A stretch of DNA of 23,851 bases from positions 1 to 23,851 of IMG/VR virus record IMGVR_UViG_3300001450_000311; one strand, 5' to 3'. Below the pieces are notes generated by a model. It had not been told where the DNA came from and did not search any database. It saw only the letters and a program-made list of their open reading frames with translations. Shown here one piece after another: positions 1,735-22,856 of the stretch (within the stretch, counting starts at the first letter, position 1; each line of letters opens with the position of its first letter). The stretch is from a virus. Position numbers and translations under genes: made by a program.

Positions 1735-2006
1735 TATCTAACGTTTTTATAGTCTTTTTTTACAGTGAAAGATTTGAACACCTTTACTGAATTTACTCCG
1801 TCGACCCAGTTAGCAACAACAAACTGAATATAAGATATGAAATCAAACATCTGATTGTTTCTAAAAATATGCGACGATAATGCATTCTTAAGTATATTTG
1901 TTCTGTAATTATTAGGAAGATGCTTCCTGTTATCAGCAACGGTATCAGTTATTTGGTATACTTTTGAACGCCTACTCTTAAATAAATTATCGGTTAACTT
2001 AGCCAT
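1734..2006 (-). CDS. Small conserved-position baseplate-cluster protein, unknown
   Basis: A 90-aa basic protein starting MAKLTDNLFKSRR and rich in Lys, Arg, Asn and Phe. No domain is recognised. It sits between the gp6/J-like wedge gene and the gpI/gp7-position gene, with TAATG one-base overlaps at both ends, so translation is probably coupled to both. The downstream protein also starts with MAK. Position suggests a baseplate accessory or assembly protein, but nothing in the sequence proves it. Confidence 0.65.
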   Translation of the reverse strand: MAKLTDNLFKSRRSKVYQITDTVADNRKHLPNNYRTNILKNALSSHIFRNNQMFDFISYIQFVVANWVDGVNSVKVFKSFTVKKDYKNVR

Positions 2007-3826
2007 TATATGCTTTTTCTATTTTTTGACTGTATCTTTCGGAATGTTGTATTAGGTACAGAAGGCTCATCAAAGTAAACTGAAAGAGCTCCCATTTCTC
2101 CAAGAACTGCTTTATCATCCACCATAATACCATCCCTATCTAACCAGCCGCCTCTAAACAGGGCGACCTCGTCTTTTTCTAATAGAATATCTCCAAATGA
2201 ATCTAAGTTTATAACATTTTCTGGTAGTGCAGCTCCAGGTTCAAAATTAATAATTCTTGAACTGACCGTTCTTTTAAAGAATACAAACTTTTGTTTTCCA
2301 TTACCTATGTCTTCAAGGACTGGGGTTGACGGAGTAACTGTAACAGTTTCAGAAGTATAATATCCGTTTCTCCTAACCTCTTCTTCAGCCTTACTTGTAA
2401 ATCTGACGTTTACAGAATCTATACCCTCAACACCCTCTAAAATAGCAACAATGTCGGATTTTGGTAATCTATCTCTTCTAGTTATATTAATCAAGTAATC
2501 AGAAATGCTAGATCTTATATTGTTAAAAATAGTATGCTTGTCATATCCTTCAAAATACCTTACCTTAATATCCATTCTAAAATATTGAGGAGATGGTTGA
2601 ACAATCTTAACCTCAGAAGTAAGCATTTGTCTGCCTGAATTTTCAAGTAAGGTCAATATTGAATTGTTTTCCTCTGCACTAAAGAAGAATTCATCTGGTT
2701 CAAAACTAAAATAATCCTTGTTTCCACTTATCTTACGCTTAACATCAGGTAACATAAACAGGTATATTACATTGTCATCATCTAAATAGCCATCATCTGT
2801 AGTATTGTACGCGTCTAAATAAGAGAACATACCATACTTGGCTAAAAATGCCTCATAATTATCAGGTGTTGCTAATACAAAAGAGTGTGATTGTAGTGGT
2901 GCGATAAGTTTTGTAAGCTCTATACTTTCTGGATTTGAACCCAGCATAGGAGCAACAGATACATCAGCAACCATAAGCTCATTTAGGTCATATGAGTTTC
3001 CAACGCTATCAAATCCTTCCTCAACAAACTTAAACGTCAAGTTTTTATGATTAACTAGATTGCCATTAGCTCCTTCAGTTGTAACATAAGTTATCTCTAT
3101 AGAACTTCCAGAAGGCGGAACGTTACCAAAGCTTCCATTTCCAAAATAAATATCCAATCCACCAGTTATACCAGTTTTAACTATAAAGCCGTTAGTACTT
3201 ACCTTCATATCATATATAGAATCAAACTTCTCCCAAGGCAGAGCGTTTACCGAAACCTTTACTGCGTTATGATCTGTATTTCCCTTTGTTATAATGTTAA
3301 ATGATTGAAACTTTTCACCGGTACCGGTTACTGTCTGTGATTCCATAGTTCCTTGTATTATAGGAATTCTTATTTCTGTGTTTGAATCTTTCGCTATTCT
3401 AAATTTATCTGAGTTTGTTAGCATTGTATATTTTAAACCGTTAGCCTCCATCTTAATCATAGAATTTGGTAATATATTTATAGCATCACCAGCAACCTCA
3501 TCGAGCGATGATGGATTTAATCTAATTTTGATTTCTCCAGTAGCTGAAGAACCTCTAAACGGATCATGTCCAGCCAGCCTAGATAAACCATAAACAGATT
3601 CCTTATGCTGTGCCGTTAATATGTTTTGCTCTACCATAGCATTTTCAATATAGTAGAAAATAAATGTTGTAAGTTCGTTTAACACGTTTAGTATCTGTGC
3701 AAACGGAGATGCTGAGGTAAATAGAGTGCCTGCTCTATCATACACCCTACTGATAAATGATTGCGTATCATCTATCATTTCAACTGTCTTGATTCTAGAC
3801 TTTTCTAAAAATTTGAATTCTGCCAT
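2006..3826 (-). CDS. Baseplate wedge protein, T4 gp6 / P2 gpJ (Baseplate_J) family
   Basis: A 606-aa protein. Residues ~217-260 contain the family signature: GGLDIYFGNGSFGNVPPSG, then SIEITYVTTEGANGNLVN. This is the FGdG-x-G-x-P-x-G ... Y-x-T-x-G-x-x-GN pattern of gp6/J proteins. The N-terminus (~40-90) has a helical segment and LSRLAGHDPFRG, also typical. The C-terminal half has the FRMDIKVRYFEGYD and IRSSISDYLINI segments of the wedge dimerisation region. In T4, gp6 forms the inner ring of the baseplate and triggers sheath contraction. It follows the gp25 gene by 17 nt, as in P2 (W then J), and overlaps the next gene by one base. The sequence TATATAAATT at ~3844-3853, near the end of the gp25 gene, might serve as an extra promoter. 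Confidence 0.9.
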   Translation of the reverse strand: MAEFKFLEKSRIKTVEMIDDTQSFISRVYDRAGTLFTSASPFAQILNVLNELTTFIFYYIENAMVEQNILTAQHKESVYGLSRLAGHDPFRGSSATGEIKIRLNPSSLDEVAGDAINILPNSMIKMEANGLKYTMLTNSDKFRIAKDSNTEIRIPIIQGTMESQTVTGTGEKFQSFNIITKGNTDHNAVKVSVNALPWEKFDSIYDMKVSTNGFIVKTGITGGLDIYFGNGSFGNVPPSGSSIEITYVTTEGANGNLVNHKNLTFKFVEEGFDSVGNSYDLNELMVADVSVAPMLGSNPESIELTKLIAPLQSHSFVLATPDNYEAFLAKYGMFSYLDAYNTTDDGYLDDDNVIYLFMLPDVKRKISGNKDYFSFEPDEFFFSAEENNSILTLLENSGRQMLTSEVKIVQPSPQYFRMDIKVRYFEGYDKHTIFNNIRSSISDYLINITRRDRLPKSDIVAILEGVEGIDSVNVRFTSKAEEEVRRNGYYTSETVTVTPSTPVLEDIGNGKQKFVFFKRTVSSRIINFEPGAALPENVINLDSFGDILLEKDEVALFRGGWLDRDGIMVDDKAVLGEMGALSVYFDEPSVPNTTFRKIQSKNRKSI

Positions 3827-4214: not shown

Positions 4215-5021
4215 TTATGAGTGCATCATCCAGTCAGTTCCTTCATCAAATGCTATTTCTTCTATTATTGTTTCAAGTTCAGACTCTCCAAGACTTTGGA
4301 TAGCATCTGCGTTTACAGAAACATTACCTGGTAATTGAAACTCAAAAATATTTAATTTATTACCTAAAGAAATCTTAACTTTTGCAGCAACGTATCTAAA
4401 GAATAGCTCATCTTCATATAATGCACAGTCTGGAATAGTTTCATAAACCTCTAAAATAACATCTGTCGTTGGTGTTTCACCAGTAAACCTTAAAGCTCTA
4501 TTAAGTCTATTATAATCGAAGCTATATGGGTTATTTAATATTTGTCTAGCCAAATCAAAGAATTTCTGGTTAATGACGTAATATTCTAAAGCCTCAGCAG
4601 ATCCTGCAGTTCCAGAATTACCATACATATTTGCCGCAAACATTCTTTCTACTGAAAAATCTCCTTCAGTAAAATTAATGTCTCCGCTTAAACTGCTTGC
4701 ATTTGTCTTATGGACTCCAAATATAGAATATATGCCTTCTGGCATATTTATAGTTCTTGATGCTTTAAAATATGCTGTACTGAAGGCAGCCTTAGGAATT
4801 ACAAGGAAATTCTCTTGAACAGAGTACTCATATTTTTTATAGAACCATTTTCTAGCTCTTTTAATTATGTTTGTAACCTCTGCAGTAGGAAGATGCATAG
4901 GAATCATGCACGACCCTGTGATTTCATCAGCCAACTCCTTTACAAAGTCACCCTCACATGTACTTCCGAAATCATGTTCAGTTACCATACCTGTATCACC
5001 TCCTAAAAATATATTACTCAT
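4215..5021 (-). CDS. Uncharacterised virion-cluster protein
   Basis: A 268-aa acidic protein with no recognised domain. Residues ~40-66 (MIPMHLPTAEVTNIIKRARK, then WFYKKYEY) form an amphipathic helix with aromatic residues, and the C-terminus is acidic (IIEEIAFDEGTDWMMHS). It lies directly upstream of gp25 in the wedge cluster, so a baseplate or neck role is plausible but unproven. The start is uncertain. Codons 6-10 contain a perfect AGGAGGTGAT (4995-5004), followed after 6 nt by an in-frame ATG (codon 12, at 4988), which could be the true start and would give 257 aa. Confidence 0.7.
   Translation of the reverse strand: MSNIFLGGDTGMVTEHDFGSTCEGDFVKELADEITGSCMIPMHLPTAEVTNIIKRARKWFYKKYEYSVQENFLVIPKAAFSTAYFKASRTINMPEGIYSIFGVHKTNASSLSGDINFTEGDFSVERMFAANMYGNSGTAGSAEALEYYVINQKFFDLARQILNNPYSFDYNRLNRALRFTGETPTTDVILEVYETIPDCALYEDELFFRYVAAKVKISLGNKLNIFEFQLPGNVSVNADAIQSLGESELETIIEEIAFDEGTDWMMHS
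4995..5004 (-). promoter_or_regulatory. Perfect Shine-Dalgarno sequence inside the 5' end of a gene
   Basis: Minus-strand AGGAGGTGAT is fully complementary to the canonical anti-SD ATCACCTCCT. It stands 6 nt before an in-frame ATG at 4986-4988 (10 nt counted from GGAGG). I noticed no other start in the window with such a sequence. It also reads as codons for Gly-Gly-Asp, so coincidence is possible. Confidence 0.4.
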
Positions 5022-5036
5022 CTCTTTTTATTATTT

Positions 5037-6329
5037 TTATACCTCAACATACCTGAGTTTCTCAGTGCCGTCAAATCTTGCTCTTTTTTTATCATAAGTA
5101 CCCTCTCTAAAAATACCATTTATCATTTTACCTTTGAACATTCCTCTACCATATACATAACAGTCTTTAGCTGTCGAATTAACGCTGACATAGCAACTTT
5201 TAAGTTTTGTCGAAGATATTTTGGCGCTATTGTAGAAATTACAACCAAGAACATCTGAGCCATCAAGGTTACCCCCAAATATATCACAGTTTTCTAACTC
5301 TCCGCGAATATCACAATTAATAAAATCATAACCATCAAGACTAACACAATAGGAAAGTTCTCCTTCATTGACTTGAACCCTACCAGTATCAGTGTCATAG
5401 TTTATATGTCCCTTTTTAAGAGCTCCATGAGTAAACAATCTTAGTACTCTTTTTTGGATATTAGCCCAATGAAGGTCTATTATCTGTTTATCCTTATGCA
5501 AGTCTACTGTGAAATTAACATTCTTCCATTTCTTCTCTATGACGCTGCTATCAAGCCTAGCATCTATAATTCTTCTATTATTCGATAAAATCCTTTTAAG
5601 TTCTATCGCATTAGAACCGCTAAACCATTTATCCTCAGTACTTTTCCATAATTGAACTAAGAACGAATCTAATAAATGCAATACCTTAGCTGTTTTCTTT
5701 TCCCAATCCTTACCGCCAATATATCTAAACTCAAGATAATTGCTTGTTCTTTTCTCAAAGTTTACACCATAGTATTTTGAATTAGGGAATGTGAAATTAT
5801 TTTCGTCAATTAAATCACCATCAATATTAAATGTTTCAGAATTTGGAATTACAAACTTAATTGATTTAGCGTATGCTGAATTTTCTCTTTTTGGAAATAA
5901 ATCAAATACAACGTCTTCATCAAAGTCTAATATAAACTTAAGAACATTCATGTTAATAATTCTCCTGCTATTGTTTGTTTTGTCAGGATCAAATGAAAGA
6001 TTTAAGTGGATTGATGACATGTCGTTTGTAAAGCCATTATCTTTAATCCATTGACAAACTCGTATAATCATAAGTCTAGCAGTCTTATAATCCTGGGCAC
6101 CGGTGACAAGCTCCATAAGCTTCTCTCCTCCACTCATATCAGGTTCTATCTTAAACTCTTCTTCAGTAGGAACAAAATCGCTATGCGCCTTATCCTCAAC
6201 TCTAATCTTTTTAGAAAGTAGGGTTGCAAGTTCTCTTGCTGTAGTTTTAATGTCCTTGTTCGAATAAAATTCAAACTCTACACCAACCATACATTTGGAT
6301 AATATTTCAGCGTCTTTAAATCGATTCAT
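5037..6329 (-). CDS. Amidoligase-like enzyme fused to C-terminal pentapeptide-like beta-helix
   Basis: A 430-aa protein. The N-terminal ~230 residues carry the spaced motifs of the glutamine-synthetase-fold amidoligase superfamily (Amidoligase_2): VGVEFEFYS (15-23), EPDMSGGEKLMELVTG (62-77), SSIHLNLSFD (105-114) and NYLEFRYIGG (197-206). Members join a carboxylate to an amine using ATP, forming peptide or amide bonds. Residues ~334-412 are a run of roughly five-residue repeats (INCDIRGELENCDIFGGNLD, GSDVLGCNFYNS and so on), as in right-handed beta-helices of the pentapeptide type. The long KR-rich linker (240-300) is unassigned. The gene sits among baseplate genes, has its own promoter-like motif and follows a terminator. 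The substrate is unknown: a virion protein, a cell-wall peptide or a small metabolite are all possible. Confidence 0.65.
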   Translation of the reverse strand: MNRFKDAEILSKCMVGVEFEFYSNKDIKTTARELATLLSKKIRVEDKAHSDFVPTEEEFKIEPDMSGGEKLMELVTGAQDYKTARLMIIRVCQWIKDNGFTNDMSSIHLNLSFDPDKTNNSRRIINMNVLKFILDFDEDVVFDLFPKRENSAYAKSIKFVIPNSETFNIDGDLIDENNFTFPNSKYYGVNFEKRTSNYLEFRYIGGKDWEKKTAKVLHLLDSFLVQLWKSTEDKWFSGSNAIELKRILSNNRRIIDARLDSSVIEKKWKNVNFTVDLHKDKQIIDLHWANIQKRVLRLFTHGALKKGHINYDTDTGRVQVNEGELSYCVSLDGYDFINCDIRGELENCDIFGGNLDGSDVLGCNFYNSAKISSTKLKSCYVSVNSTAKDCYVYGRGMFKGKMINGIFREGTYDKKRARFDGTEKLRYVEV

Positions 6330-6846: not shown

Positions 6847-8040
6847 TTATAATTCCATAAAAACTTTACGAGTCTCCTCATCGATTCTCGTGACTGTGAC
6901 TGTGATGTCTTCTCCTTTATTTAAACTATTCAAATCAAATCCTTCAGGGAATTCAGACACATGCAGTAAACCTACAAGGCCTTCTCCAATATCAACAAAG
7001 GCGCCATAATCTTTTACAGATCTGATCTTTCCAGTTATGTCAATTGGCGTTTTAAACCTCTCTGAAGCGTTGTACCATGGATCGCTAACAGGCTCCACTG
7101 GTTTTTGAGACAGTGTAATCTTATTTTCAGATATAATTTTCTTAATGAAGAATTCAATCTCTTCTCCAGGCTTAACATCTCTAGAACGATGTCTCTTTGT
7201 TGTTTCCTCATCTAAATCGTTTATGTGAATCATACCAGTTAAGCACTCGTTAAACTCACAGAATACTCCAAACTTAGCAGATCCAGTAACAATACCTCTA
7301 ACAACCACACCATTTTCATATTCTTGTATTTCAGCAATTTTAGTAGGAATCATAGCCTTTAAATACTCTCTATGAGAAACAACAATAGTCCCTCTTTCTG
7401 GAGAGTAGTTCATGGGAACGACATACATTTCAGTGTCCAGTATAGACTCAAAGTCATGTAGTTTATTGATTCCAGCCAAAGAACCTGGCATAAAGCACTC
7501 TATACCCTGTATCTCTACAATATAACCTCCACCTGGAATCAAGCTTTTTACAGTAGCATTATACGCAGTTTTAGAATTCTCTACGCTATCAAGTATCTCA
7601 TCAAATATAGCTCGTTTAAAACCAGCTTCAATAGAACCCAATATGTACTTTTTCTGTTTAGAACCACTAGACTCTATGATTTGCACGTTAACCTTCTCGC
7701 CAACTTTGAGTAATTCCTTGTACTCTTCTGATTCTTTTGCCATATCAATATATACGTCATCTCTAGCCCCAATGTTAATTCTACACCACTCAACATCAAT
7801 AGAACTTACGGTTCCTTCATACGACTTGTTTAGTCGAACGTCGATTACTCTGTTGTGCTCACTAAAATCTTGGTCATACAACTTTGCGGCTTCTTTGGCG
7901 TATGGTTCGGTACAATATAACTTTATACCATTATTTGCTTTTGCATTGCTACGCCTTACTGATGGACAATCTGCTTCGTGCGCTGCCCAGTCGAAGTCTG
8001 GGTCGGGTGTGTTGTAATCTACAACGGTTTCCTTTGACAT
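6847..8040 (-). CDS. Ribosomal protein S1-like protein with four S1 domains
   Basis: A 397-aa protein. After a unique ~65-residue N-terminus come four OB-fold S1 repeats: ~72-137, ~157-224 (with IECFMPGSLAG, like domain 2 of bacterial S1), ~243-312 (RGIVTGSAKFGVFCEF...LTGMIHINDL) and ~332-397 (GKIRSVKDYGAFVDIGEGLV, then GLLHVSEF). It ends at the last strand of domain 4, so it looks like S1 domains 1-4 without the final two domains of the usual ~6-domain protein. S1 binds A/U-rich leaders and brings mRNA to the 30S subunit. Domains 1-2 anchor S1 to the ribosome in E. coli. Located between tail genes with its own promoter-like motif 43 nt upstream, it may redirect host ribosomes to phage mRNA. 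It could instead serve RNA processing, since S1 assists T4 RegB. Confidence 0.88.
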   Translation of the reverse strand: MSKETVVDYNTPDPDFDWAAHEADCPSVRRSNAKANNGIKLYCTEPYAKEAAKLYDQDFSEHNRVIDVRLNKSYEGTVSSIDVEWCRINIGARDDVYIDMAKESEEYKELLKVGEKVNVQIIESSGSKQKKYILGSIEAGFKRAIFDEILDSVENSKTAYNATVKSLIPGGGYIVEIQGIECFMPGSLAGINKLHDFESILDTEMYVVPMNYSPERGTIVVSHREYLKAMIPTKIAEIQEYENGVVVRGIVTGSAKFGVFCEFNECLTGMIHINDLDEETTKRHRSRDVKPGEEIEFFIKKIISENKITLSQKPVEPVSDPWYNASERFKTPIDITGKIRSVKDYGAFVDIGEGLVGLLHVSEFPEGFDLNSLNKGEDITVTVTRIDEETRKVFMEL

Positions 8041-8083
8041 TTTTTGTTTTTTTAAGGGTTATTTAATTTGTAATATCGTAGTA

Positions 8084-8092
8084 TATATATCT
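8084..8092 (-). promoter_or_regulatory. Candidate late promoter for the S1-like gene
   Basis: Minus-strand TTAGATATATATACTACG directly after the stop of the 511-aa gene, 43 nt before the ATG at 8040. The leader ends AAAAAAACAAAAAATG. Confidence 0.5.
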
Positions 8093-8097
8093 AATTT

Positions 8098-9633
8098 TTA
8101 GAAGACATTTGGCACAAAACCAATCATAGGTATATATGGAACGAATGGAACTGGAATACCTCCTAAGTAAATAAACTTGAGAGACATTAGGTGTCTGGCG
8201 TATGCTAATGAAAGAGCAGTAGCAACCATCTGTCCAGCCTCTCGTTTATTATTAGAATCTTTACCCGCGTTTAATGCCTTTCTAATCCCCTCCGCCAACT
8301 TCTTTTTATTACCCAAGTAGACTGGGATATATTTACCGCCTAATGGACTTGATGATATGCAAGGTGGGGCTGGCGGCATAGTAGATAGCGGCTGTGCAGC
8401 AGTAGACTTCCAATAATCTATAGTAGCAGCAGCAAGTAATTCATATGGATCCTCTCCAGTTTCTCCAGCTTCGATATCTGCAAGAGCGTCTACGGTTCTC
8501 TGTCTAGTAAACATATAAGGCGCTCCTCTATTTTTTTTACTAACAACGTCGTCAGCGCTTTGAACATCTTCAATCTTGCCCCACTTATTTTTAAGTTCAG
8601 CATTAATATACCGACTCTTGACTAAGTCCTCACCCCAATCCGAAGATGTTTTTAAACCAGACCTACCTGAAAAATATGTTATAAATTCTTTTGTCATAAT
8701 GGGAGAAACATTATAGTCATCAGAATCGTTATCTTCGTCAAACTCCTCCTGCACAACTCTAATTCTAAAATCTTTTGCACCTATATTATATTCCATGTTA
8801 GGTGGTAGTCCATTAGCAGCACCAAATATTTCAGCAACTGTTTCTAATTCATATGATACTCTAAGTTTTTCAAGCGTTTTCGACTTTACGCTATCAATAA
8901 GAAATTCTGCATCATACCCATTAGCAGTAATAGATTCTAACAAGCTATCCTTAAAAGCTAATCTTCTATTATTAAGACTTGTGTCCTGTGTAGATGTTTG
9001 CCAAGAATTAAAGCTGGAAATCCATAGATACATATCTTCACGTTTACTTCCGCTGCCTTCTAAGAGAAAAGAGAATAAAATCCTATTTGATATTATATTA
9101 GATAGCTCCTCTATTGTTTCACCTCCATATAAACGAAACTCAAAATATTTATATGTATATAAATCATAAGTAGAACCATATTCATTTAAAAATATAGCCA
9201 TTTCTTCAGGGTCTATTACAGGTTCAGGTACTTCAGTAGTATCAGGATCTGCATACTCTGGATCTGGTTCAGCTGGGCTTGGATTATTTGGATCGCTTTT
9301 CTTGCCGCTAAACGCTATTTCTTTTCCAGAAGAATCTACTTGATTATTATTTGGAATATCTGGCTGTGTATCACGTGCGCCATCTCCTGTTGTGTCTTCA
9401 CCAAGAAGTCTTTTAAATTGTGCCTTATATGAATCAACTAGCGGGTTTATGAGTCCAGCTTCGTGAGATTGTCCATATACTGTTGTTGAGGTTCCTACTG
9501 CAGAAAAATATTCATTAGCTACGAATTCTCCAAATGCTTCTGCTCCCGCATCTGCAGTCGGTTCATTAGAAGCAACTTCGTCAACTATAAAATCAGTGAC
9601 ATTTGTTATAAATGTTGACCAGTTTGCGGGCAT
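8098..9633 (-). CDS. Uncharacterised tail/baseplate structural protein
   Basis: A 511-aa protein. The N-terminus (1-75) is helical, with NWSTFITNVTDFIVDEVASN, EAFGEFVANEYFSAV and FKRLLG. Residues ~85-140 are a low-complexity Pro/Asp/Glu linker (PSPAEPDPEYADPDTTEVPE). The body is mixed, and the C-terminal ~90 residues contain PPAPPCISSSPLGG and a hydrophobic, Pro-rich end (YLGGIPVPFVPYIPMIGFVP). I recognise no family. Its start overlaps the stop of the gp5-like gene by one base (TAATG), so it is probably made together with the hub and spike proteins. A role in hub assembly or as an internal tail protein is inferred from position only. It ends just before the S1 gene promoter motif. Confidence 0.75.
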   Translation of the reverse strand: MPANWSTFITNVTDFIVDEVASNEPTADAGAEAFGEFVANEYFSAVGTSTTVYGQSHEAGLINPLVDSYKAQFKRLLGEDTTGDGARDTQPDIPNNNQVDSSGKEIAFSGKKSDPNNPSPAEPDPEYADPDTTEVPEPVIDPEEMAIFLNEYGSTYDLYTYKYFEFRLYGGETIEELSNIISNRILFSFLLEGSGSKREDMYLWISSFNSWQTSTQDTSLNNRRLAFKDSLLESITANGYDAEFLIDSVKSKTLEKLRVSYELETVAEIFGAANGLPPNMEYNIGAKDFRIRVVQEEFDEDNDSDDYNVSPIMTKEFITYFSGRSGLKTSSDWGEDLVKSRYINAELKNKWGKIEDVQSADDVVSKKNRGAPYMFTRQRTVDALADIEAGETGEDPYELLAAATIDYWKSTAAQPLSTMPPAPPCISSSPLGGKYIPVYLGNKKKLAEGIRKALNAGKDSNNKREAGQMVATALSLAYARHLMSLKFIYLGGIPVPFVPYIPMIGFVPNVF

Positions 9634-10349
9634 TATTCGTTAGCATTTGTAGACTTACTGTCTTGTTGATAATTTCTATGTTTTGAAGTGCTTGATGCCT
9701 TAAACGATATGGCTTCAGTTGATGGACTTGAAGGTCCTGTTCCTGTCGGATGGATGTGTTTTGCATAATCATCTATAAAATCAGTAAGAAACTTTTCTAA
9801 ACTTCCACCGCGCACTGCAGGTTGACTAGTATTACCCATATCATTGAAGTCATCTCCTTCTGGGGTTGCTATATAAATGTTAGCGCCATATAAAAATATC
9901 TTACCGTCATCAGATAATCTAATAAGTGGCTCAGAATTTTTACCGTCCTTTCCATGTGCTATAACTAAGCCATCAACATCTGATTGATATATCCTAATAT
10001 TTCGCTTAGCATCATATACCAGGGAAACTACATTTTCAGGTTCTCCTGAAGAATCTAGCACCTCACCCTTAAGTTCTTTATTTTGATTGATTTGAAACCA
10101 ATATTCTGGGTGGTATATATTTCCGTTGTCGAACCTAACAGCAACGACGTCGCCTATATTGGGAGCGTGGTGAGAGCCTACATTATCTCTATTCATAGGA
10201 GTTGCCCATGGGATATTATCAGTTTCTAATAAGTCAAACTTACCAAACACCCTTACTCTGCATCTTCCAAGATTATCAGGGTCGACGTTATCTACGACTT
10301 CACCAAGCCAATGAGTATCTCTTAAATTATCTTTATATAGTTCATTCAT
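9633..10349 (-). CDS. Baseplate spike/hub protein with gp5-type OB-fold domain
   Basis: A 238-aa protein. Residues ~10-105 (WLGEVVDNVDPDNLGRCRVR, then VFGKFD, IPWATPMN and GDVVAVRFDNGNIYHPEYWF) match the OB domain of T4 gp5/VgrG/gpV spikes: G-x-V-x-x-x-x-D-P-x-x-x-G-R-x-R-V, P-W-A and G-D-x-V. The middle resembles the start of a beta-helix (IRIYQSDVDGLVIAHGKDGK), and a His/Pro/Ser tail follows. It lacks the lysozyme domain of T4 gp5. It would cap the hub and help pierce the host envelope. I place the start at ATG 10349, where TGATG overlaps the previous stop by one base; a GTG one codon upstream is the alternative. It follows the gp27-like hub gene with one gene between. Confidence 0.82.
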   Translation of the reverse strand: MNELYKDNLRDTHWLGEVVDNVDPDNLGRCRVRVFGKFDLLETDNIPWATPMNRDNVGSHHAPNIGDVVAVRFDNGNIYHPEYWFQINQNKELKGEVLDSSGEPENVVSLVYDAKRNIRIYQSDVDGLVIAHGKDGKNSEPLIRLSDDGKIFLYGANIYIATPEGDDFNDMGNTSQPAVRGGSLEKFLTDFIDDYAKHIHPTGTGPSSPSTEAISFKASSTSKHRNYQQDSKSTNANE

Positions 10350-11659
10350 CACCCGTGAATATTCCCTAAGTTATTATTACCACCTGTTCCGGAATTATTT
10401 GTATTAGAGTCTGCATTAATGTTTTCACCGACTTTTAAACCAGCTACTGCGCTTTGGTCGAAGGCGTCCTGTACTGTCGCACCTGGAGTAAGTCCAAAAA
10501 TATTTTCTGGAATATTATCTGAAAGAGTACTTATATCAGTGGCGCTGTCGACACCTGCGACCGTATTAGCGTATATGTTCTCAAAGTTTGGAACGTTTGC
10601 CCGGTATATGTCACTGCCTAATTGCCTGACCTGTTGCTTCTTCTTTTCCATAAACAATGCAGCATCATCAGCGAAACGATCGCCCAACTCATCAATCTTA
10701 TTTCCTATCTTATCCCCAATAAGACCGCCAAAATCTTTTGCGTCATATGCTTTTGATTCTTCTGCAGTTGCTGGTGAAAGTCTAGCAGTGTCGTTTTCAG
10801 CTTCGACTATAGTTCCACTAAGAACTCTAGCTGAAACCTTGCCTACGTTCTCATAAGTGAATGCAATCTCAGATGCTGCAAAACCTTCTGGCGATTTCTG
10901 TAGATCTGCAAATTGTGCAGTACCTGTAGTCATATCCCATTCACAGTTACCTAATTCAAACATGAAAAAGGGTCTACTATCGGATCCACTAATATCAGCA
11001 TTTGCATTCTTGACATCAAGTGAAGGGTTAAACGCATCTTTAAGGTTACTTTCTCCTCCTACTGAATCCTTGGCAGCATTTTTATCAAAGCCTAGCGAAG
11101 GTGCAATTTTTGATAGGTTTTTAATTGGCCTAACCTCAGTTACATATACCCAAACTCTAAACTTACGTAAATTGCATGGAAGTATATAAGACCATTTTGC
11201 CTCATCAAAAACAGCAGTTCTATATAGATACATTAAACCCGCAATAGTTAAATCAAGAGATTCTAATGTTCCAATTGTTAGTTTCGATTCATCACCGCCT
11301 CTATATGGTTTGTTTGGGTTGTATTTTTGAAGAGCATCGATTCCAGACAAAGACTGCCAATACCATGGCATCTCTTGATTTATTTTCTTTAAAGTCAATA
11401 TGAAATCATCAAGAGCTTTCAATCTAGGTCCGTAACCGTTGCTGTATTCTGCATGTGACTGAATTGGTGCCTCCTTTCCATCAGCATCTGTGTTTTGCTT
11501 TATAAATGCTCTTGCAGCTCCAGATAAAAGTGGAGAAGAAGAACCGTCCGTGAAATCGAACATAAGAGCAAACGAAAGATACGTTGGATCAGAATATTGA
11601 TTATTCTTACCTAAATTATATCCTTTTCTAAAATCGTTAAATGTGCTAAAGTCTGACAT
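10349..11659 (-). CDS. Uncharacterised baseplate/tail structural protein
   Basis: A 436-aa protein between the gp27-like hub and gp5-like spike genes. The N-terminal two thirds is compact and aromatic (DPTYLSFALMFDFTDGSSSP, NQEMPWYWQSLSGIDAL, LRKFRVWVYVTEVRPI). After ~residue 290 it becomes helical and acidic (IGDKIGNKIDELGDRFADDA). The last ~30 residues are Asn/Gly-rich (NADSNTNNSGTGGNNNLGNI). The segment FMFELGNCEWDMTTGTAQFA suggests a beta-barrel tube-like part. No family is named with confidence; a tube-initiator or hub-accessory role is inferred from context. The ATG is 4 nt from an AGAATATATA motif and the stop overlaps the next start. Confidence 0.75.
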   Translation of the reverse strand: MSDFSTFNDFRKGYNLGKNNQYSDPTYLSFALMFDFTDGSSSPLLSGAARAFIKQNTDADGKEAPIQSHAEYSNGYGPRLKALDDFILTLKKINQEMPWYWQSLSGIDALQKYNPNKPYRGGDESKLTIGTLESLDLTIAGLMYLYRTAVFDEAKWSYILPCNLRKFRVWVYVTEVRPIKNLSKIAPSLGFDKNAAKDSVGGESNLKDAFNPSLDVKNANADISGSDSRPFFMFELGNCEWDMTTGTAQFADLQKSPEGFAASEIAFTYENVGKVSARVLSGTIVEAENDTARLSPATAEESKAYDAKDFGGLIGDKIGNKIDELGDRFADDAALFMEKKKQQVRQLGSDIYRANVPNFENIYANTVAGVDSATDISTLSDNIPENIFGLTPGATVQDAFDQSAVAGLKVGENINADSNTNNSGTGGNNNLGNIHG

Positions 11660-18468: not shown

Positions 18469-18666
18469 CTACCCAAGATCATAAAACTCATTATCGTCTA
18501 ATTTCCACTTATCCACAAACTCATTTATAAAGTCCATTGATTCAGGAGAACCAATATAAGCATCAACTTTTTTTACATATCCACGATAGAAATTACTGCT
18601 TCCGTTTTCAGATAAAATAGTTATCAATTCCTTTTTGGTTGGTATGTACTTTTTGTTAAAACTCAT
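18469..18666 (-). CDS. Small hypothetical protein
   Basis: A 65-aa protein (MSFNKKYIPTKKELITILSE...), with a basic N-terminus and an acidic C-terminus (KWKLDDNEFYDLG). No domain is seen. Its start overlaps the end of the dCMP deaminase gene by 11 nt, so it is likely translated from the same mRNA. Confidence 0.6.
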   Translation of the reverse strand: MSFNKKYIPTKKELITILSENGSSNFYRGYVKKVDAYIGSPESMDFINEFVDKWKLDDNEFYDLG

Positions 18667-19096
18667 TCCAGACTATTACTTTATTTACGTTAATATTTGC
18701 TTTTTTTAATAATTCAATTCCTTTAGTATCTCGATACTCCTCACTATAGAATACATTTTTAATTCCTGACTGTATAATCAATTTAGAGCATTGAAAACAC
18801 GGACTCATTGTTACATAGAGATCAGCTCCTTTAGAATCTACTGTTGATTTCGCTATTTTTGCAAGAGCGTTAGATTCAGCATGTAAGACTTCAGGCTTTG
18901 TTGTTAATTTTCCAGTCTGTGAATCTATGCTCTCGCACGAGTTATTGAATCCATGTGGAGTTCCATTATATCCAAACGAAACAATTTGAGTATCTTTTAC
19001 AATTACGCTACCTACTTTACGACGTTCAGCATAACTAAGTTTAGCAAATTGATACGCGACCTGCATGTATATTTTATCTATTGGTAATCTTGGCAT
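18656..19096 (-). CDS. Deoxycytidylate (dCMP) deaminase
   Basis: A 146-aa protein of the zinc cytidine/deoxycytidylate deaminase family. The catalytic motif is H72-A-E74 and the zinc cysteines are in PCFQC (C100 and C103), with VGSVIVKDTQIVSFGYNGTP upstream as is usual in dCMP deaminases. It converts dCMP to dUMP, which feeds thymidylate synthesis for phage DNA; T4 gene cd does the same. The allosteric-looking GYNGTPHG segment is present. A strong AT-rich hairpin ends 2 nt before the ATG. Confidence 0.92.
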   Translation of the reverse strand: MPRLPIDKIYMQVAYQFAKLSYAERRKVGSVIVKDTQIVSFGYNGTPHGFNNSCESIDSQTGKLTTKPEVLHAESNALAKIAKSTVDSKGADLYVTMSPCFQCSKLIIQSGIKNVFYSEEYRDTKGIELLKKANINVNKVIVWNEF

Positions 19097-22264: not shown

Positions 22265-22269
22265 TGTTG

Positions 22270-22343
22270 TGATCTCGGTGGGACTCGAACCCACGACTTT
22301 CTCATTAAAAGTGAGAAGCTCTAACCAGCTGAGCTACGAGATC
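22270..22343 (-). tRNA. tRNA-Lys (anticodon TTT)
   Basis: A full cloverleaf: acceptor GATCTCG/CGAGATC (7 perfect pairs), D arm GCTC...GAGC, anticodon stem TCTCA/TGAGA with loop CTTTTAA, T arm GTGGG-TTCGAGT-CCCAC, and discriminator A. CCA is not encoded. It reads AAA/AAG, abundant in AT-rich phage genes. Confidence 0.95.
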
Positions 22344-22349
22344 AATTTG

Positions 22350-22424
22350 GGTGGATAATGGGATTCGAACCCATGGCCCCTGGTACCACAAACCAGCGCT
22401 CTAACCAACTGAGCTATACCCACC
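22350..22424 (-). tRNA. tRNA-His (anticodon GTG)
   Basis: A full cloverleaf: acceptor GTGGGTA/TATCCAC, an extra G(-1) opposite discriminator C as expected for His tRNA, anticodon stem CTGGT/ACCAG with loop TTGTGGT, and T arm ATGGG-TTCGAAT-CCCAT. CCA is not encoded. It is 6 nt from each neighbouring tRNA. Confidence 0.95.
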
Positions 22425-22430
22425 ATATTG

Positions 22431-22504
22431 TGAACCGGGAAGGATTCGAACCTTCGACCGCCTCCTTAGAAGGGAGGTGCTCTATCCAGCTGAGCTACCG
22501 GTCC
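22431..22504 (-). tRNA. tRNA-Arg (anticodon TCT)
   Basis: A full cloverleaf: acceptor GGACCGG/CCGGTTC (one G-T pair), anticodon stem CCTCC/GGAGG with loop CTTCTAA, T arm GAAGG-TTCGAAT-CCTTC, and discriminator A without CCA. It reads AGA/AGG, a common Arg codon in AT-rich phages. It lies 10 nt after the stop of the 113-aa gene. Confidence 0.95.
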
Positions 22505-22514
22505 AGTTGTAGAT

Positions 22515-22856
22515 TTACTTAACTACAAAGGGCTTGTCCCAATCTCCAACACTCAGGTGGAAATACCAACCAACGTCGAAATAATCAGTCATCGAATCTG
22601 AATTATCATGATTACCTCTCATTGCGATACTGGTTATATCCTCGAATAACTCTCGTTCCTTCAGTTCACTTAAGTTATGATGATTGATTTGACTATAGTC
22701 TCCACAATCAAGGTCTCTGGGTGCTTCTAATATTGATATGTCAACGCACCTGTAGTCTCTACCTCTGACTGAAATCTTCCACCCGTCTTTTTTAGAGTAC
22801 TTAGTTCTGATTTCTTTTCTGATTTCTTTTACCTGAGTTGGTGTAATGTAAGCCAT
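22515..22856 (-). CDS. Small early protein, possibly LPD29-like
   Basis: A 113-aa protein. The N-terminus (YITPTQVKEIRKEIRTKYSK, then DGWKISVRGRDYRCVDISIL) resembles polyvalent-protein-associated small domains (LPD29 type) found in phage and plasmid anti-defence proteins, in which an N-terminal helix and VDIS strand recur. The resemblance is by eye and weak. It follows the membrane protein gene with a 4-nt gap and precedes the tRNA cluster in the same probable operon from cassette B. Confidence 0.55.
   Translation of the reverse strand: MAYITPTQVKEIRKEIRTKYSKKDGWKISVRGRDYRCVDISILEAPRDLDCGDYSQINHHNLSELKERELFEDITSIAMRGNHDNSDSMTDYFDVGWYFHLSVGDWDKPFVVK

Follow-up and report, generated by a model that had tools for sequence, protein, structure and literature searches.

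The window, by which we mean the whole 23,851-nucleotide stretch of viral DNA analyzed here, encodes a homologue of the bacterial ribosomal protein bS1 that is a core gene of its phage lineage and a fixed part of the baseplate gene block. S1 serves the ribosome as an arm that delivers mRNA to it, and in Bacteroidota, the anti-Shine-Dalgarno sequence of the ribosome is hidden. The phages that carry this gene may be adapting the ribosome of the host to the synthesis of late phage proteins.

A Four-Domain bS1 Homologue

The open reading frame starts with the ATG at position 8040 of the minus strand and stops at 6847 (Table 1). Residues 55-395 of its product align with positions 3-340 of the 516-position TIGR00717 model (E 4e-42), PRK00087 matches it with E 3e-47, and among solved structures, E. 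coli bS1 (6h4n_y, its residues 5-344; E 4e-43) is the nearest in sequence. PF00575, the profile with which the first-pass annotation had proposed to check its claim of four S1 repeats, finds domains 3 and 4 when used alone (two of the four) and misses domains 1 and 2. The four-domain register is therefore taken from the rpsA profiles, which align throughout, and by TIGR00717, PRK00087, and E. coli bS1, the four repeats are real. Bacteroidota S1 matches TIGR00717 to approximately position 514, whereas the match of the phage protein ends near 340; domains 5 and 6 are therefore absent, in line with the earlier reading of a domain order 1-4 with the last two missing. The window protein scores 144 bits against the NCBIfam equivalog cutoff of 577 bits for rpsA. 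Because it falls below this cutoff and lacks domains 5 and 6, we refer to it as a bS1 homologue and not as a cellular rpsA ortholog.

Table 1. Features of the S1 gene and its surroundings in the window
Feature	Position	Strand	Evidence
Phage bS1 homologue, 397 aa, four S1/OB domains	6847..8040	-	rpsA profiles E 4e-42 to 3e-47; Foldseek; dN/dS
N-terminal extension (residues 15-54), FDW motif at residues 16-18	7879..7998	-	Motif conservation; model has low confidence there
Domain 1, ~residues 70-137, ribosome-anchoring type; R93 = E. coli K43 position	7630..7833	-	R/K in 62/62; rpsA-only matches
Domain 2, ~residues 156-225, GGY and FMPGSLAGINKL; best-conserved domain	7366..7575	-	Alignment of phage S1s
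Domain 3, ~residues 240-313, RNA-binding type (F257, F260, H272)	7102..7323	-	Residue conservation
Domain 4, ~residues 329-397, RNA-binding type (Y345, F348, H360)	6850..7056	-	Residue conservation
A-rich, SD-less 5' leader of S1	8041..8083	-	Leader composition
GATATATA, promoter-like element of S1; also precedes baseplate and other genes	8084..8091	-	TATATA[AT] recurrence
511-aa protein directly upstream of S1	8098..9633	-	Synteny; dN/dS 0.17-0.30
gp5-like baseplate hub OB protein	9633..10352	-	PF04717 3e-8; phrog_430 1e-13
430-aa protein, conserved downstream neighbor of S1	5037..6329	-	Every locus inspected; weak family matches only
Ad2-like neck/head-tail adaptor protein	4215..5021	-	phrog_211 4e-13; "neck protein" in cultured relatives
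gp6-like baseplate wedge protein	2006..3826	-	phrog_219 2e-35; S1-independent anchor

S1 domains also occur in PNPase and in RNases, and a better match of domains 1 and 2 to these enzymes had been named as one outcome that would speak against a takeover of translation. When domains 1 and 2 are searched as separate pieces, they match 12 and 11 families, respectively, all of which are 30S ribosomal protein S1. PNPase and RNase R match only domains 3 or 4, where they score below the best rpsA model, and these matches are confined to the S1 part of the enzyme models. Domains 1 and 2 are thus nearer to rpsA than to the S1 domains of PNPase or RNase. An origin of the protein from such an enzyme is ruled out because domains 1 and 2 match rpsA models only and the catalytic core is absent. 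An AlphaFold2 model of the window S1 (pLDDT 76, pTM 0.52) has as its best Foldseek match in the PDB the bS1 of a 30S mRNA-delivery complex (9gut_B, E 4e-26), and a two-domain portion of the model fits 30S-bound bS1 (9guq_B) with a TM score of 0.74 normalized by target. Because the pTM of 0.52 is that of a flexible multidomain protein, the arrangement of the domains is left uninterpreted. As judged from these alignments, the window protein is confirmed as a colinear homologue of bS1 domains 1-4.

Conserved and Lost Residues

Residues were counted in 62 distinct phage S1s and, for the host comparison, in 67 Bacteroidota S1s. In the E. coli structure, K43 of bS1 enters the zinc pocket of uS2, on which F5 and F9 stack; K117, F120, and F130 are located at the mRNA (PMC10123108). 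All 62 phage S1s have R or K at the K43 position, whereas the positions of the F5/F9 stacking pair vary. F79 is missing from the phage proteins and likewise from the Bacteroidota host S1s. Among the mRNA contacts, K117 is lost, the F120 position is always Y, and F130 is invariant. Among the four domains, conservation is lowest in domain 1. Domain 2 has a mean pairwise identity of 0.75 among the phage S1s, with GG, Y, F, and PGS invariant in 62/62. Its IECFMPGSLAG stretch, previously described as domain-2-like, is the counterpart of E. coli IRAFLPGSLVD; the F, the PGS, and then a GINKL loop occur in every one of the 62 phage proteins, and the loop is found in 0/67 host S1s. The stacking sites of domain 3 are similarly maintained (F260 in 62/62, H272 in 59/62, and an aromatic residue at 257 in 62/62), as are those of domain 4 (Y345, F348, and H360, each in 62/62). 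On this reading of the alignment, the residue pattern fits RNA binding well; its fit to uS2 anchoring is looser.

A Core Gene of the Baseplate Block

Approximately 375 IMG/VR contigs encode a related S1 by alignment query, and 80 of the 375 were retained. A protein query with the window S1 gave 35 viral loci with 44-100% identity. A scan of bacterial genome contigs with the phage sequence patterns returned no S1-encoding contig or relative. The gene had been placed in a tail gene cluster, and this placement holds: gp5-like hub, gp25/sheath-like, gp6-like wedge, and Ad2-like neck genes all lie nearby. At the loci inspected, the order is fixed as gp5-like hub, variable gene, S1, 430-aa protein, neck, small wedge-like protein, and gp6-like wedge. 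The 462-kb phage LR756500 keeps most of the same baseplate/neck gene order around S1.

To avoid circularity, loci were gathered by their neck and gp6 proteins, and S1 was not used. S1 is at the expected place in 63 of 63 and, among gp6-anchored loci, 49 of 49 with enough upstream sequence (63 + 49, or 112/112); the two sets have loci in common, both with one another and with the S1 set. Each set was drawn from the best 80 of ~380 relatives, so the fixity is that of this lineage only. The dN/dS of S1 is 0.05-0.13, comparable to the 0.07-0.13 of the gp6 wedge, whereas that of the 511-aa upstream neighbor is 0.17-0.30. S1 is under strong purifying selection.

Several other features of this region were recorded. 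In some relatives, another gene takes the place of the fast-evolving gene for the 511-aa protein between neighbors that stay fixed. Elsewhere on the minus strand, the window encodes three tRNAs in a row, Lys(ttt), His(gtg), and Arg(tct), at 22269-22504, a deoxycytidylate-deaminase-like protein at 18656-19096 (ComEB model, E 2e-28), and a 113-aa protein at 22515-22856 with a weak, below-cutoff match to the large polyvalent protein domain LPD29 (E 6e-5).

Promoter-like Motif and Leaders

The first-pass annotation assigned S1 its own promoter-like motif. The element GATATATA indeed precedes the gene and has seven copies on the window's minus strand (4203, 6356, 6837, 8084, 16181, 19509, and 20996), each of them shortly upstream of a gene start. 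Its core, TATATA[AT], is found in the 60 nt before S1 in all of 63 distinct relatives, whereas dinucleotide shuffles give 12 on average; it is also present in all 24 representatives under 85% identity. The element is likely a phage promoter and possibly a late one.

The final 20 nt before S1 in 63 distinct leaders contain 62% A and 0.8% G, with an SD-like motif in 0/63. Across 24 window genes, the preceding 20 nt contain 56% A versus 36% strand-wide, and no SD-like motif is found in them, in agreement with the earlier description of A-rich, SD-less leaders. However, Bacteroidetes mRNAs likewise lack SD sequences, and A-rich, SD-less leaders are the style of the hosts themselves (PMC6847099). 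The leaders alone therefore give the phage no advantage, and the earlier suggestion of a direct advantage for phage mRNA is unsupported in the form given. In addition to TATATA, 54 of 63 distinct S1 leaders (L003-L121) contain TTAA[CT] and then an A-rich run immediately ahead of the start codon. A strict leader element, TTAACNYTTWAAA, was considered as an S1-specific control element and dropped since it mismatches the S1 leader of the window itself.

Family, Origin, and Host

In a tree of 57 S1 sequences, the phage S1s, including those of LR756500, LR745206, LR756501, and Lak, lie together on one side of a branch that has an SH-aLRT support of 100. This branch, which separates them from Bacteroidota S1, measures 6.8 changes per column; because of its length, long-branch effects are possible, and neither the root nor the donor of the phage S1s can be named. 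In this tree, the window S1 groups with the S1s of Lak and of phages of 460-735 kb, far from Bacteroidota S1. A recent capture of a host rpsA is unsupported by such a topology. S1 matches in records labeled as "phage" from Listeria, Enterococcus, and Acinetobacter were taken to be host DNA. The N-terminal stretch S.E.YAQ occurs in 44/62 phage S1s and in Lak but in no host S1, and the F[DNM]W motif occurs in all 62 phage S1s and in 26/67 Bacteroidota S1s. Three Bacteroidota genomes (G147, G174, and G197) encode a second, shorter S1-like protein (~275-279 bits, TIGR00717 positions 64-431) beside a normal rpsA.

The 21 nearest gp6 relatives in GenBank phages (six huge-phage records and 15 Lak) all come with S1, whereas the next-nearest, from cultured phages, come without it. 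When the complete genomes of PTm1, pT24, PAU, and MA9V-2 were searched with profiles, neither S1 nor bS21 was detected. Since these cultured phages, whose baseplates are related, show neither protein, S1 is not required for infecting Bacteroidota. A single gain of S1 is not resolved by the gp6 tree, in which the S1-free Tenacibaculum, PAU, and Chryseobacterium phages sit in an unresolved backbone; one gain and a loss, or two gains, are possible. Related baseplates occur in phages infecting Tenacibaculum, Chryseobacterium, Flavobacterium, and Prevotella. Together with the F[DN]W motif shared with some Bacteroidota S1s, these hosts make the Bacteroidetes host proposed earlier plausible for the window phage. 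The lineage of large S1-carrying phages as a whole probably infects Bacteroidota.

The bS21 Partner

In E. coli, domain 1 of bS1 touches both uS2 and bS21 (PMC10123108), and phage bS21 is transcribed together with late structural genes (PMC9723584). We found bS21 in 34 of ~70 S1 contigs searched; many contigs end before the expected place. Where positions were compared, it is upstream of S1 and on the same strand at a distance of ~16-23 kb, and in L011 and L013, the two close relatives of the window with enough sequence, the distance is 16-17 kb. With 15.8 kb of sequence upstream of S1, the window is too short to show bS21 at that distance. Four of the six huge/Lak phage genomes scanned also contain bS21. 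It was unmatched in several contigs of 145-236 kb, in LR756500, and in Lak-B2, so some lineages keep S1 without bS21. On the contig upstream of the L011 tail block (L289:3598-16028), genes for a Clp-type AAA protease, thymidylate synthase, an ATP-grasp ligase, a DnaJ-like protein, bS21, and PhoH lie together. The ATP-grasp protein, an "rpS6 glutaminyl transferase" by PHROGs, was set aside as evidence for ribosome modification because Pfam favors D-Ala-D-Ala ligase and other ATP-grasp families.

Proposed Function

The best explanation, and one that we consider fairly probable from the sequences compared here, is that the phage bS1 is expressed late, joins host 30S subunits, and recruits SD-less mRNA. 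The four-domain protein would be made late from the promoter-like element that it has in common with baseplate genes. Domain 1 would dock onto uS2 of host 30S subunits, and the phage protein would replace or top up the loosely held host bS1. Domains 2-4 could then capture A-rich, SD-less mRNA and deliver it to the ribosome, allowing abundant late structural proteins to be made. In many relatives, phage bS21, a neighbor at the mRNA exit, would act at the same site. Added bS1 gave two-fold more initiation on an SD-less mRNA with F. johnsoniae ribosomes (PMC9976891). Conservation across the lineage, the link to the S1s of Lak and huge phages, and the bS21 of relatives are stronger arguments for this role than the leaders. 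The late timing is suggested by gene position and the shared motif, and ribosome binding and exchange for host bS1 are inferred. Any preference for phage over host mRNA is a supposition, because host leaders are SD-less too. Counted against this explanation are the poor conservation of F5/F9 and K117, the low conservation of domain 1, the missing bS21 matches in several long contigs, LR756500, and Lak-B2, the cultured phages with related baseplates that show neither S1 nor bS21, and the position in the baseplate block, which also fits a virion protein.

A virion protein, either an S1-derived OB fold within the baseplate or a protein packed and injected with the genome to act at the start of infection, is an unlikely alternative that draws on the constant location of S1, with the hub gene on one side and the neck/wedge genes on the other, at all 112 loci of the two overlapping sets, on the promoter-like motif common to S1 and baseplate genes, and on the packaging proposed for phage bS21 (PMC9723584). 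However, the RNA-stacking residues of two domains are kept nearly throughout, which is unexpected for a purely structural OB protein, and in Lak, LR745206, and LR756501, no baseplate homologue was detected within ±8 kb of S1, the gp6 relatives being elsewhere in these genomes. The absence of host S1 domains 5 and 6, combined with the kept anchor residue, could also describe a short competitor that occupies uS2, blocks host bS1, and lowers host translation with no help to phage mRNA. We regard this as quite unlikely: a blocker has no need for RNA-binding residues, which domains 3 and 4 retain, phage leaders lack SD sequences just like those reported for the host phylum, so that blocking would harm the phage as well, and a location with late structural genes fits helping rather than early shut-off. 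An RNA binder acting off the ribosome, for example in shielding late mRNA from nucleases or in transcription, would accord with the weak conservation of domain 1 and with the side roles of S1 in trans-translation, RNase E protection, and RegB activity (cited in PMC10123108 and PMC13157829). The ribosome-type domains 1 and 2, with their rpsA-only similarity, and the conserved basic anchor residue make it improbable. Contamination with host DNA or a recent capture of host rpsA can practically be dismissed: although many S1 matches in GenBank phage records resemble host DNA (e.g., Acinetobacter), phage tail genes flank S1 at every locus, the pattern scan of genome contigs yielded none encoding it, and the long branch lies between the phage and Bacteroidota S1s.

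Recruitment of SD-less mRNA by a late phage bS1 thus remains our preferred reading. A tentative extension, possible though doubtful, is that an ancient, phage-only S1 lineage was passed down through a broad clade of large Bacteroidota phages, megaphages included, and that together with phage bS21 it remakes the site where mRNA leaves the host ribosome, giving the ribosome a late form specific to the phage.

Comparison with Known Systems

The first-pass annotation considered a near-complete phage S1 unusual, a view that prior reports do not support: rpS1 with up to six S1 domains is known from a few huge phages (Al-Shayeb et al. 2020, PMC7162821), and bS1 is known from Microcystis phage PhiMa05/MaAM05 (PMC13157829). 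The huge-phage proteins (LR756500, LR756501, LR756502, LR756504, and LR745206) belong to the same family by profile (E 4e-53 to 1e-97) and by tree, and the lineage S1 profile matches all six huge/Lak genomes tested. In contrast to that report, S1 is here a four-domain core gene of a broad lineage, mostly on contigs below 240 kb, within a fixed baseplate block. The S1 of the Lak megaphages (Prevotella phages, MK250015-MK250029) is also of this family (Lak-B2 profile E 2e-47) and has the FDW start and the S.E.YAQ stretch in common with it, but its similarity covers only domains 1-3 (profile positions 9-312), and no baseplate homologue was detected within 8 kb. PhiMa05 bS1 is phage-encoded too, but it adjoins ispH, rplU, and rpmA and is separate from the window family in the tree. 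The bS21-encoding Bacteroidetes phages (Chen et al. 2022, PMC9723584) share with L011 the theme and the gene types bS21, Clp-type protease, PhoH, and thymidylate synthase; that paper makes no mention of S1, and bS21 lies by terminase/capsid genes there as opposed to DnaJ-like/PhoH genes in L011. Cellular Bacteroidota bS1 is colinear over domains 1-4 and carries F[DN]W in part of the phylum, but it has six domains, ~27-30% identity to the phage protein, and no GINKL loop. Mizuno et al. set aside the S1 domain as functionally ambiguous (PMC6375957). The literature searched, with few subscription journals and hence as weak evidence, describes no phage-specific S1 family, baseplate-block place, or bS21 pairing.

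Phage S1 as such was therefore already known; what is new is S1 as a lineage core gene in the baseplate block. Ribosomal proteins of phages have for the most part been regarded as isolated additions, whereas here bS1 is fixed in a widespread lineage and held in common with much larger phages. Its frequent pairing with bS21, which contacts bS1 in E. coli, makes the idea of a phage-remodeled ribosome directly testable in Bacteroidota.
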